DNA from: Halomonas aestuarii
GTDB taxonomy: Bacteria > Pseudomonadota > Gammaproteobacteria > Pseudomonadales > Halomonadaceae
Length of the DNA: 64,000 nt
Direction of reading: 5' to 3'
Assembly: GCF_001886615.1 (NCBI RefSeq)
Contig: NZ_CP018139.1
Coordinates: 2,170,001-2,234,000 of the forward strand
Both the position numbers and the translations under genes were made by a program. Numbering within the stretch: position 1 is the first letter of the stretch; each line of letters starts with the position of its first letter. The notes under the pieces are model-generated. The model was not told where the DNA came from and ran no database searches. It worked only from the letters and a program-made list of their open reading frames with translations. Shown in pieces: positions 2,161-59,735 of the stretch.

Positions 2161-3657
2161 ATGAAGTATCAGGACCTGCGCGAGTTCATCGCGGTGCTCG
2201 AGGACCAGGGCGAACTCGTCCGGGTCTCCGCCGAGGTGGACCCGTACCTCGAGATCACCGAGATCTGCGATCGCACCCTGCGGGCCGGCGGGCCCGCGCT
2301 GCTGTTCGAGAACGTCAAGGGTCACACCATGCCGCTGCTCGGCAACCTGTTCGGCACGCCGAAACGGGTGGCCATGGGCATGGGCCAGGACTCGGTGGCC
2401 GCCCTGCGCGAGGTGGGCGAGCTGCTGGCCTTCCTCAAGGAGCCGGAGCCCCCCAAGGGGTTCCGCGATGCCTGGAGCAAGCTGCCGATCTTCAAGCAGG
2501 TGATGAGCATGGGGCCGAAGACGGTGCGCTCGGCCCCGGTCCAGGCGCTTGTCTACGAGGGTGACGAGGTCGACCTCGACCGCCTGCCGATCCAGCACTG
2601 CTGGCCCGGGGATGCCGCGCCGCTGGTCACCTGGCCGCTGGTGATCACCCGCGGGCCCCACAAGGCCCGCCAGAATCTCGGCATCTACCGCCAGCAGAAG
2701 CTCGGCAGGAACCGCCTGATCATGCGCTGGCTATCCCATCGCGGCGGGGCCCTGGACTTCCAGGAGTTCCAGAAGACGAATCCCGGCGAGCCCTTCCCGG
2801 TGGCCGTGGCGCTGGGCGCCGACCCGGCCACCATCCTGGGGGCCGTGACGCCGGTGCCGGACAGCCTCTCCGAGTATGCCTTCGCCGGGCTCCTGCGCGG
2901 CTCGCGTACCGAGCTGGTCAAGTGCGGCCATGCCGACCTCCAGGTGCCGGCGTCCGCCGAGATCATCCTCGAGGGCTTCCTCTACCCGGACGACACGGCG
3001 CCCGAGGGCCCCTACGGCGACCACACCGGCTACTACAACGAGGTCGAGCAGTTCCCGGTGTTCACGGTGACGCGCATGACCATGCGCGAGAACGCCATCT
3101 ATCACTCCACCTACACCGGCCGGCCGCCCGACGAGCCGGCGATCCTGGGGCTGGCCCTCAACGAGGTGTTCGTGCCGATCCTGCGCCGCCAGTTCCCCGA
3201 GATCGTCGACTTCTACCTGCCCCCCGAGGGCTGCTCCTACCGCATGGCGGTGGTGACCATGAAGAAGCAGTACCCGGGCCATGCCAAGCGCGTGATGATG
3301 GGCGTATGGAGCTTCCTTCGCCAGTTCATGTACACCAAGTTCGTGGTGGTGCTCGACGACGACGTCGACGCCCGCGACTGGAAGGACGTGATCTGGGCCA
3401 TCACCACCCGCATGGATCCCGCCCGGGACACCGTGATGGTGGAGAACACCCCCATCGACTACCTGGACTTCGCCTCCCCAGTGGCCGGGCTGGGCTCCAA
3501 GATGGGCCTGGACGCCACCGGCAAGTGGCCCGGCGAGACCGACCGCGAGTGGGGCACGCCCATCGTCATGGACGAGGCCGTCAAGGCCCGCGTCAGCGAC
3601 CGCTGGAACGAGCTGGGCATCACGCTTTCCCCTGACAACGACACGAGGCATTCATGA
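2161..3657 (+). CDS. ubiD: 4-hydroxy-3-polyprenylbenzoate decarboxylase
   Basis: UbiD removes the ring carboxylate of 4-hydroxy-3-polyprenylbenzoate in ubiquinone synthesis, using prenylated FMN supplied by UbiX, which is not in this window. The 498-aa length matches the family. Family blocks include the N-terminal [14 protein letters not shown], the [15 protein letters not shown] segment that helps form the cofactor site, the TGRPPDEP block and the C-terminal [15 protein letters not shown]. The stop overlaps the next start by 4 bp (ATGA), so ubiD, the flavin reductase and folM probably form one transcript. The first of these partners is commonly found with ubiD. Confidence 0.96.
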
Positions 3658-11010: not shown

Positions 11011-11673
11011 ATGAGCAAACAGGTGGCGGTCATCCTCTCGGGGTGCGGGGTGCAGGACGGGTCCGAGATCTACGAGACCACCCTGACCCTGCTGCGCCTC
11101 GACCAGCTTGGGCTGGGCTATCGGTGCTTCGCCCCCGACATCGCGCAGCACCATGTCGTCGATCATCGCCTGGGTGAGGTGGCCGAGGGGGAGACCCGCA
11201 ACGTGCTGACCGAGTCGGCACGTCTGGCCCGCGGCGAGATCTCGCCCCTGGACGAGCTCGACGCCGACGAGTTCGACGCGGTGATCCTCCCCGGCGGCTT
11301 TGGGGTCGCCAAGAACCTCTCGGACTTCGCCTCGGCGGGTGCCGGCATGCAGGTGATCGATGCCCTGACCGAGGCGCTGGCCGGCTTCCACGCGGCGCGC
11401 AAGCCGATCGGCCTGATGTGCATCAGCCCGGTGCTGGTGCCGCGCCTGCTCGGCCCGGGCATCGCCGTGACCGTGGGCAGCGACCCCGGCGTCTCCGGGG
11501 CGATCAGCGCCATGGGCGGCCTGCACCGCAGCTGCGGGGTGGAGGACATCGTTCTGGACTTCGAGAACCGGGTGGTGACCACCCCGGCCTACATGCTGGC
11601 GACCCGCATCAGCGAGGCCGCCACCGGCATCTTCAAGCTGGTCGATCGCATCGACGAGCTGATGGATCTGTAA
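11011..11673 (+). CDS. elbB: Glyoxalase III-like protein ElbB (DJ-1/PfpI superfamily)
   Basis: This 220-aa protein is close to E. coli ElbB (also called GlxA or YhbL) along its length: VAVILSGCGVQDGSEIYE at the N-terminus, LPGGFGVAKNLSDFAS in the middle, PIGLMCISP with the nucleophile-elbow cysteine, and VVTTPAYMLA near the C-terminus. E. coli ElbB has glyoxalase III activity in vitro and was once linked to isoprenoid synthesis; its physiological role is unsettled. An AAGGAGAAAGG ribosome site precedes the ATG. It is single, diverges from hemB and is closed by a strong terminator. Confidence 0.93.
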   Translation: MSKQVAVILSGCGVQDGSEIYETTLTLLRLDQLGLGYRCFAPDIAQHHVVDHRLGEVAEGETRNVLTESARLARGEISPLDELDADEFDAVILPGGFGVAKNLSDFASAGAGMQVIDALTEALAGFHAARKPIGLMCISPVLVPRLLGPGIAVTVGSDPGVSGAISAMGGLHRSCGVEDIVLDFENRVVTTPAYMLATRISEAATGIFKLVDRIDELMDL

Positions 11674-11697
11674 GCGCCGAGCTACAAGCGCCGAGAC

Positions 11698-42966: not shown

Positions 42967-46963
<3,997 letters not shown>

Positions 46964-47006: not shown

Positions 47007-47024
47007 TGTAAGAGATCGCCTACA
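47007..47024 (+). promoter_or_regulatory. Candidate GacA upstream activating sequence
   Basis: TGTAAG (47007-47012), 6 bp, CCTACA (47019-47024) matches the published GacA box TGTAAG-N6-CTTACA at 11 of 12 specified positions. It lies about 185-200 bp before the probable start of the GGA-rich RNA, the spacing seen for rsmZ in Pseudomonas, where the box is near -180. Confidence 0.55.
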
Positions 47025-47061
47025 CGGCGGCGACGACTTTCGCTACCCGTGCCGTTGTCAG

Positions 47062-47090
47062 GGCCGACCCCTTTAGGGGTCGGTCCTTTT
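47062..47090 (+). terminator. Terminator after eno
   Basis: GGCCGACCCC (47062-47071) and GGGGTCGGTCC (47076-47086), with one wobble pair, form a stem over TTTA, followed by TTTTCATTT. It ends the pyrG-kdsA-eno transcript before the RNA gene. Confidence 0.85.
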
Positions 47091-47205
47091 CATTTGGCTG
47101 ATTTCTAAGCCTTTTTTCGTTCGGCTTCTGCGGGTCGTCCGGGGCGAGGGCCGCCCGAACACCGTCCGGAAAGGCTTGTACGGCCATGCTGCCATGCCAC
47201 AATGA

Positions 47206-47381
47206 ATACGGGATCAGGAAGAGCGGGGACGTTCTTTCGGCAGGATGCAACGGGATGCTTGAGGTGATGTGTTCGGTGCGGCAGGAAGCCGCTCCCGGAC
47301 AGGGAAGGCATCACGGGAGTCGGGCGGAGGGAGCCGCTCAAGGATCGGCTTGGAGCGGGCGGCCTGCGGGCCGCCTTTTTT
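47206..47381 (+). ncRNA. RsmZ/CsrB-type regulatory RNA (candidate CsrA-binding RNA)
   Basis: A stretch of about 175 nt holds thirteen GGA triplets (among them AGGAAG, AGGATG, GGGATG, GGGAGT, AGGGAAGG and AAGGATC), many in loops or between short stems. It ends in a perfect intrinsic terminator (GGCGGCC, GGCCGCC, T6). A promoter fits as TTGTAC (47176-47181), 16 bp, CACAAT (47198-47203). A GacA-like box lies upstream. The adjoining gene is fdxA, the neighbour of rsmZ in Pseudomonas, although rpoS is not here. Such RNAs bind several CsrA (RsmA) dimers and relieve their repression of target mRNAs; csrA is in this window at 59541. No protein frame fits the region. The start is uncertain by about 10 nt. 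Confidence 0.72.
47358..47381 (+). terminator. Intrinsic terminator of the GGA-rich RNA
   Basis: GGCGGCC (47358-47364), 4-nt loop, GGCCGCC (47369-47375), then six T. The nearest rightward gene end is eno, which already has its own terminator about 270 bp earlier, so this one belongs to a separate transcript. Confidence 0.85.
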
Positions 47382-47413
47382 GACCGAGCGACTCCCGCTT
47401 CGCTCAGGGCAGA

Positions 47414-47468: not shown

Positions 47469-47792
47469 TCAGCGCTCGAGCAGTTCCAGCTTGCCCGGCT
47501 TGCCGTCCCACGCCTCGGCATCCTCCGGCGGCTCCTGCTTCTCGCTGATGTTGGGCCACACCTCGGCCAGCTCGGCATTGATCTCGATGAACGCCTCCTG
47601 ACCCTCCGGCAGCTCGTCCTCCGAGAAGATCGCCTCGGCGGGACACTCTGGCTCGCACAGCGCGCAGTCGATGCATTCGTCGGGGTGGATCACCAGGAAG
47701 TTGGGGCCCTCGTAGAAGCAGTCCACCGGGCAGACCTCGACGCAGTCGGTGTACTTGCACTTGATGCAGTTCTCGGTGACGACGAATGTCAT
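47469..47792 (-). CDS. fdxA: 7Fe ferredoxin FdxA
   Basis: This 107-aa ferredoxin has the two cluster motifs of the 3Fe-4S/4Fe-4S Azotobacter FdI type: [20 protein letters not shown] near residue 9 and [17 protein letters not shown] near residue 40. An acidic C-terminal extension follows (residues 58-107). The start MTFVVTENC is fixed by similarity. The gene reads leftward with mutS upstream of it. A 24-bp AT-rich palindrome lies 62-85 bp before the start and may be a regulator site. Function is electron transfer; the partner is not known. Confidence 0.96.
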
Positions 47793-59540: not shown

Positions 59541-59735
59541 ATGCTCATCCTGACCCGCCGCGTCGGCGAAACCCTGATGATCGGTGACGATGTCACCGTC
59601 ACGGTCCTTGGTGTCAAGGGCAACCAGGTTCGCATCGGCGTCAACGCTCCCAAGGATGTCGCCGTGCATCGGGAGGAGATCTACCAGCGTATCCAGCGGG
59701 AGAAGTCCGAGCCCGACCTCGAGAGCGACGTATAG
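59541..59735 (+). CDS. csrA: Carbon storage regulator CsrA (RsmA)
   Basis: CsrA is a small homodimeric RNA-binding protein that represses or stabilises mRNAs by binding GGA motifs near ribosome sites. The 64-aa protein starts [17 protein letters not shown], has the strand [20 protein letters not shown] and ends with the helix [12 protein letters not shown]; Arg44-equivalent residues for RNA contact lie in VAVHREE. Its AGAAGGAGA ribosome site itself contains GGA, so autoregulation is plausible. The candidate antagonist RNA lies at 47206-47381. tRNA genes follow. Confidence 0.97.

Follow-up and report, generated by a model that had tools for sequence, protein, structure and literature searches.

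Our analysis indicates that an unannotated, GGA-rich small RNA (sRNA) encoded between eno and fdxA in Halomonas aestuarii is very probably the Halomonadaceae positional counterpart of RsmZ, a GacA-activated sponge for CsrA. The RNA was found in a 64,000-nucleotide (nt) stretch of the genome (the window); between eno and fdxA a palindrome is followed by the eno terminator, a promoter, the GGA-rich stretch and a terminator with six T (Table 1). The original prediction of an RNA of the RsmZ/CsrB class is supported, because the conserved GGA motifs are unpaired, the stems covary and the RNA has an intrinsic terminator; because a GacA-type box lies at the distance known for rsmZ and fdxA is in the same tail-to-tail position; and because csrA and a UvrY/GacA-type gene occur in the same genome. 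We regard the sRNA as a further RNA of the known Rsm/Csr type, though it fails the RsmZ model of Rfam. It has the features of that class (GGA triplets mostly unpaired or in loops, an upstream palindrome, its own promoter and terminator, and csrA and gacA in the genome), and convergence with fdxA and an upstream box, expected of a positional orthologue, are found in H. aestuarii and in its relatives.

Both flanking genes named originally were verified with NCBIfam models (fdxA, NF045490; eno, TIGR01060), as was mutS in the window. The csrA gene lies about 12 kb from the sRNA, as had been claimed; it is single copy in this genome and occurs in every one of the 38 genomes examined. The sRNA begins approximately 245 nt past the eno stop codon, and rpoS is absent from the roughly 500-nt gap between eno and fdxA.

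Table 1. Features of the sRNA locus (window coordinates) and RNA copies in three relatives (coordinates of the locus or contig named)
Feature	Position	Strand	Evidence or remarks
eno, upstream neighbour	45671..46963	+	TIGR01060, 665.8 bits (NCBIfam)
GacA/UvrY-type palindromic box TGTAAGAGATCGCCTACA	47007..47024	+	1 mismatch to TGTAAGN6CTTACA
eno intrinsic terminator	47060..47090	+	12-pair stem
Candidate promoter	47176..47203	+	-35 TTGTAC, 16-nt spacer, extended -10 TGC-CACAAT
GGA-rich sRNA, ~174 nt	47208..47381	+	Predicted 5′ end; 13 GGA, covariation, R1 185.8 bits
Hairpin GCGGC-AGGAA-GCCGC, AGGA in loop, inner part of helix 4	47278..47292	+	Alignment columns 82-86/92-96
Hairpin with AGGGAG loop, helix 5	47322..47339	+	100% of cells paired
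Intrinsic sRNA terminator with six T	47357..47381	+	Helix 7, 99.5% of cells paired
fdxA, convergent neighbour	47469..47792	-	NF045490, 176.8 bits (NCBIfam)
csrA, presumed binding partner	59541..59735	+	PF02599, 93.1 bits; single copy in genome
RNA copies in L122 (G291)	1992-2164, 2360-2537, 2558-2716		R1; minus strand; between eno and fdxA
RNA copies in G304:C18	57951-58119 and 58318-58495		Minus strand; g116, gacA-less; at least 2 tandem
RNA matches in L127 (G269, g115)	1924-2108 (57.3 bits), 2456-2624 (11.6 bits), both minus strand		R1

The thirteen GGA triplets said to lie in about 175 nt were all counted on the forward strand of the sRNA. Among 127,654 sliding windows over both strands of the 64 kb, 31 reach this number and all 31 overlap the sRNA locus; dinucleotide shuffles contain 7.2 GGA on average and reach 13 in 0.08% of 5,000 cases. 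In an alignment (A1) of the H. aestuarii sequence with those of 23 relatives, seven triplets are invariant across all 24 sequences and ten are retained in at least 20 (the other three occur in two or three rows), so the comparison proposed originally for related Halomonadaceae bears out the conservation of the GGA motifs, as it does that of the terminator helix. Nine of the 13 triplets are fully unpaired in the consensus fold, and the GGA in the loop of helix 4 is preserved in all 24 rows.

Folding of the single sequence gave a z score of -2.68, with 2 of 200 shuffles folding equally well. RNAalifold applied to the 24 rows of A1 predicted 41 pairs, 16 of them with compensatory changes, a number matched by none of 500 shuffles; double-sided changes affect 72 cells (21.1 in shuffles), and further pair types are no more frequent than in shuffles (34 versus 32.6; 157 of 500 shuffles). 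In the count made with controls, the consensus fold pairs 97.8% of cells and slid registers pair 33-46%, a comparison that favours the true register since the structure was derived from the same 24 rows; the compensatory changes are firmer evidence for the fold, though their counts are inflated by kinship of the rows. The clearest hairpins bear AGGA (helix 4) and AGGGAG (helix 5) as loop sequence. Pair 85-93 of helix 4 is A-U in 12 of 24 rows and G-C in 11, and four of the six pairs of helix 5 have changed on both sides. The hairpin CTCCCG..CGGGAG, given originally as an example of the fold, gives way to a rival helix formed with an upstream strand (102 versus 140 of 144 cells paired).

It is very unlikely that the RNA is instead a conserved Hfq-type base-pairing sRNA whose GGA-richness is incidental to high GC; the GC content, the strong terminator and a chance-level match to the Rsm clan of Rfam would suit such an RNA, but seven GGA are fixed throughout the alignment while the surrounding stems change in compensation, the GGA count exceeds that of shuffles with the same dinucleotides, and the GacA box and rsmZ-like position would be left unexplained.

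The -35/-10 pair TTGTAC...CACAAT is preserved among relatives: TTG and TGCCACAATG-like columns are conserved in the alignment of 24, and further relatives were compared by eye. A sigma-70 consensus scan of the window did not report the promoter, so that its original placement stands because of this conservation, with the scan adding nothing to it. The RNA had been drawn at 47206-47381; the end is confirmed by the terminator with six T, and the start is better placed at about 47208-47211, as predicted here. The distance of just 245 nt or so from the eno stop codon might suggest that the RNA derives from the eno 3′ UTR or from read-through, or that it is a cis-element of one of the two neighbours, eno and fdxA, and a passage of PMC4950607 presents RsmW of P. 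aeruginosa as a suggested 3′-UTR product; this reading is most improbable, in that the eno terminator intervenes (a stem is visible by eye at its position in the alignment of 24, uncounted), the conserved promoter directly precedes the RNA and fdxA is encoded on the other strand.

The region appears to be non-coding, as originally stated. No reading frame is conserved in the 24 aligned rows: the length differences between rows do not keep the frame, and whichever of the three frames is read from the beginning of the row, stops occur in 12-17 of the 24. The chance that a small protein is encoded by the 65-amino-acid frame at 47186-47383, which spans the sRNA region and is open in the window, is negligible, since its ATG lies upstream of the predicted RNA start, stops and out-of-frame length differences occur as above, and conservation tracks the RNA pairs.

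The GacA-type box, the strongest evidence and one absent from the original prediction, is centred at about -195 relative to the predicted RNA start; according to a section of PMC4950607, the GacA sites of P. aeruginosa are at -196 for rsmZ and -75 for rsmY. All 24 aligned rows have one to three mismatches to the strict consensus TGTAAGN6CTTACA. A family form, TGTARGN6CYTACA (the R/Y form), was used in the counts of co-occurrence and of named relatives. The box alone is weak evidence because, with up to one mismatch to the R/Y form, the H. aestuarii genome contains 13 sites versus 9 for the reversed control pattern; three sites are exact, one of them at the sRNA locus. The other 12 sites are followed by at most seven GGA in 120 nt (L139), versus ten at the sRNA, and a second Rsm RNA was not found in the genome via these GacA-like sites. 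The L139 site (G000:C1:3075569-3075586) is exact and lies shortly 5′ of an open frame of about 490 codons; it possibly marks another GacA target. Another of these 12 sites lies in the window (11669-11686); it has two mismatches to the strict consensus and at most five GGA per 120 nt within 500 nt on either side. The box at the sRNA comes after the stop codon of eno but before its terminator, and transcription of eno would thus cross the putative activator site of the sRNA.

Co-occurrence of the box with gacA is stronger evidence than the box by itself. H. aestuarii has a gacA-type gene (C1:112858-113487; NF007018, 282.8 bits, cut-off 280). We compared 51 RNA-bearing genomes, picked for coordinates and genus spread and not at random, calling a UvrY/GacA-type gene by NF007018 at E <= 1e-60 and a box by up to two mismatches to the R/Y form in the 700 nt upstream. 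The box was present in 36 of 37 genomes with a gacA-type gene (at most one mismatch in 31; none in G429) and absent from 12 of 14 without one. These genomes are related and the counts were made without a tree, so the 12, which fall into four groups (g15, g116, g118 and G001), may stem from fewer independent losses. The two gacA-less exceptions, G373 and G396, have an exact box and belong to genera otherwise keeping gacA in the sample; an assembly gap or recent loss of gacA is possible. Single boxes with two mismatches prove little, because some of 100 shuffled versions of the upstream regions also contain a site with 0-2 mismatches. The presence of the box is, on these counts, largely tied to that of gacA. 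Among the rows printed, the promoter motif TTGAG..TGCCACAATG is clear by eye in most gacA-bearing genomes (not in L127, L181 or L191) and gone from the gacA-less ones, except G396 and, in altered form, G373; G304 was left out of this inspection. The box lies about 300 nt upstream of the RNA in G395 and G361, and in G269 a weak first copy (11.6 bits) follows it at a distance of 188 nt and a strong copy (57.3 bits) at about 700 nt. Five more gacA-less genomes with an RNA match (G270, G277, G295, G329 and G359) fall outside this comparison.

A DNA search of 38 genomes (H. aestuarii, 24 of the same genus and 13 others of the order) found the sRNA region next to eno in 23 of 24 same-genus relatives; the 13 others gave no match or a short one near chance level. 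In the 24 sequences that include H. aestuarii, eno is always upstream and fdxA is convergent in 23, the remaining one being interrupted by a contig end. A covariance model (R1), built from an alignment of Halomonadaceae sRNA loci, later recovered the 24th same-genus relative (G001, 77.8 bits). It gives 185.8 bits at the sRNA of H. aestuarii and identified no second credible copy in that genome (next best L041, 18.3 bits, with no box in the locus). At E <= 0.001, R1 matches 166 of 201 family genomes, spread over 18 of 24 genera; by our count 14 of the matched genomes supplied training rows, so that 152 of 187 are new, and at least five matches are weak (E about 1e-5 to 1e-4: G267, G270, G296, G371 and G389) and were not relied on. 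Every match above 60 bits in 244 genomes of the order is within the family, and scores elsewhere are at most 27 bits. The 21 extra-family loci returned (L053-L073) are treated as chance matches: neither fdxA nor eno adjoins them in the sequence retrieved, they lack a box of one mismatch or fewer, and none of 20 scanned was named as an Rsm RNA by Rfam at E <= 0.01.

A 21-base pattern of the RNA (one base free) retrieved 42 stretches from a collection of named genomes, titled Halomonas, Billgrantia, Litchfieldella, Modicisalibacter, Franzmannia or Bisbaumannia; all score 97.7-187 bits with R1. An upstream eno, an fdxA in convergent orientation and a box of no more than two mismatches each occur in 40 of the 42, the misses being loci cut short on that side. 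Litchfieldella (Halomonas) anticariensis FP35 has the RNA (L205; R1, 162.9 bits) with a box that matches the R/Y form exactly, and H. elongata carries a counterpart (L231).

The sRNA is assigned to no Rfam family by score, and the covariance check put forward originally thus came out negative. At gathering scores Rfam reports tRNAs only in the window. The only Rsm-clan match there is RsmX (RF02144), the whole model aligning with the last two thirds of the sRNA (47269-47379) at 19.4 bits, below the cut-off of 56 (E 0.33); CsrB gave no match in the Rfam scans. The 44-bit cut-off of RsmZ (RF00166) was reached by none of 16 family loci scanned, nor was that of any other Rfam family, and two of four non-family loci in the same scan pass RF00166 (L101, 100.6 bits; L103, 86.1 bits). 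Matches to rsmX elsewhere in the H. aestuarii genome (at most 25.3 bits, none above the cut-off) are taken for chance, the same search giving hits in 11 of 14 control genomes, and matches to psbNH and Hrs13 in the window fall on the eno terminator.

An RsmZ scan of 145 genomes of the order identified four loci above the Rfam cut-off (L101-L104), all in family f21, taken for Pseudomonadaceae. In L101-L103 rsmZ is convergent with fdxA and has a GacA box of 0-1 mismatches upstream; L104 has a box with one mismatch, and fdxA was not found in the 3.1 kb fetched. Five of eight sub-threshold matches (L105, L106, L108, L110 and L112; families f27, f29 and f34) are convergent with fdxA and have GacA-like sites of 0-2 mismatches in the locus; fdxA was not found in the loci of the other three (L107, L109 and L111). 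R1 scores on these RsmZ loci are 28.8 bits for L110, 22.3 for L112, 19.1 for L108, 18.8 for L101, 15.5 for L105 and 13.6 for L102, those of L101 and L102 lying below unrelated order-wide matches (up to 27 bits), and R1 does not list L103, L104 or L106. L110 and L112 come from f29 genomes, with RsmZ scores of 30.6 and 30. An alignment (A2) of non-family RsmZ-like RNAs was too divergent (46% mean column identity), and no model was built from it. The sequence evidence for homology to RsmZ is therefore no more than suggestive, and the relationship is argued from position and regulation.

RsmZ of Pseudomonas (PrrB/RsmZ, RF00166) is tail to tail with fdxA in three of the four loci above the cut-off, as is the Halomonadaceae sRNA, and both are non-coding RNAs that contain GGA motifs, end in a terminator and have a GacA-type box some 170-196 nt upstream. 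They differ in length (about 174 nt versus 118-137 nt in those four loci), in upstream neighbour (eno for the sRNA, whereas rsmZ is known beside rpoS) and in the location of the box, which is 5′ of the neighbour's terminator in H. aestuarii and 3′ of one in L101 (by eye). A figure legend in PMC4353343 names both rsmZ and rpoS. The CsrB and CsrC RNAs of enterobacteria and Shewanella follow the same logic as the sRNA, with a UvrY/GacA box (TGTAAGN6CTTACA) upstream and many AGGA/ARGGA motifs, as described in part of PMC3171408, where Shewanella CsrB1 and CsrB2 are given as 420 and 421 bp. Counting against the RsmZ-class reading are the failure to reach any Rfam cut-off, the lack of fdxA at L104, the low R1 scores on RsmZ loci, a box barely commoner than its control, the retention of the RNA in several lineages without gacA, and the g17 exceptions described below.

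On the model of the established Gac/Rsm pathway, in which GacA switches on an RNA that titrates CsrA (passages of PMC7366521, PMC4950607 and PMC3171408), phosphorylated GacA would bind the palindrome at 47007-47024 and activate the promoter at 47176-47203. The RNA, of about 174 nt, would terminate at its own terminator, and its conserved GGA motifs, in hairpin loops and unpaired linkers, would bind several CsrA dimers; titration of CsrA would then release its mRNA targets. The sequences show that the RNA and its fold are conserved, that a box and promoter precede it, that it shares its position with rsmZ and that csrA and a gacA-type gene are present; that the RNA is transcribed, that GacA and CsrA bind as described and that targets are released we infer from the known pathway.

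In Halomonas (Litchfieldella) anticariensis, quorum sensing, exopolysaccharide and biofilm are reportedly under GacS/GacA control, and the sRNA of this system is listed as 'Unknown' in the relevant part of a 2020 review (PMC7366521). Regulation of quorum sensing by GacS/GacA in this species is described in PMC4187203, in the text of which the words sRNA and small RNA are absent. No description of an Rsm/Csr RNA in Halomonadaceae was found among the matches listed in the open-licence literature. Presence of the sRNA in the FP35 genome and in H. elongata makes the missing link in the GacS/GacA system directly testable.

The family provides a natural experiment on the fate of an Rsm RNA once its activator is lost. 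The RNA is retained in g15, in two g116 genomes, in one g118 genome and in G001, all of which have lost the gacA-type gene together with the GacA box and the usual promoter (promoter judged by eye, G304 excepted); all ten g15 genomes sampled have the RNA and lack the gene. On balance we lean towards the view that the sponge RNA outlived its activator in these lineages and is either rewired to a different signal or constitutive there. G291 (g116, gacA-less) has three tandem copies (L122; 73.5, 68.2 and 53.7 bits) and G304 has two or more, eno and fdxA having been verified as flanking genes of the tandem copies in G291 only; a third g116 genome, G270, has a weak R1 match only. No RNA match was obtained with R1 in the gacA-less genomes G275, G278 and G279. 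In g17 (L113-L116; G323, G287, G153 and G371) gacA, csrA and the eno-fdxA neighbourhood are all present, and no RNA match or box was found in the eno-fdxA gap of 98-295 nt.

The gacA-bearing genome G269 contains a strong copy, a weak copy and fragments in an eno-fdxA gap of 1.2 kb, and an exact GacA box precedes the weak first copy. In G268 (g114) the L131 locus, next to an fdxA of 74% identity, combines an exact GacA box with 13 GGA in 160 nt; R1 scores there are weak (15.2 and 19.5 bits), and the locus probably encodes a divergent RNA of the same kind.
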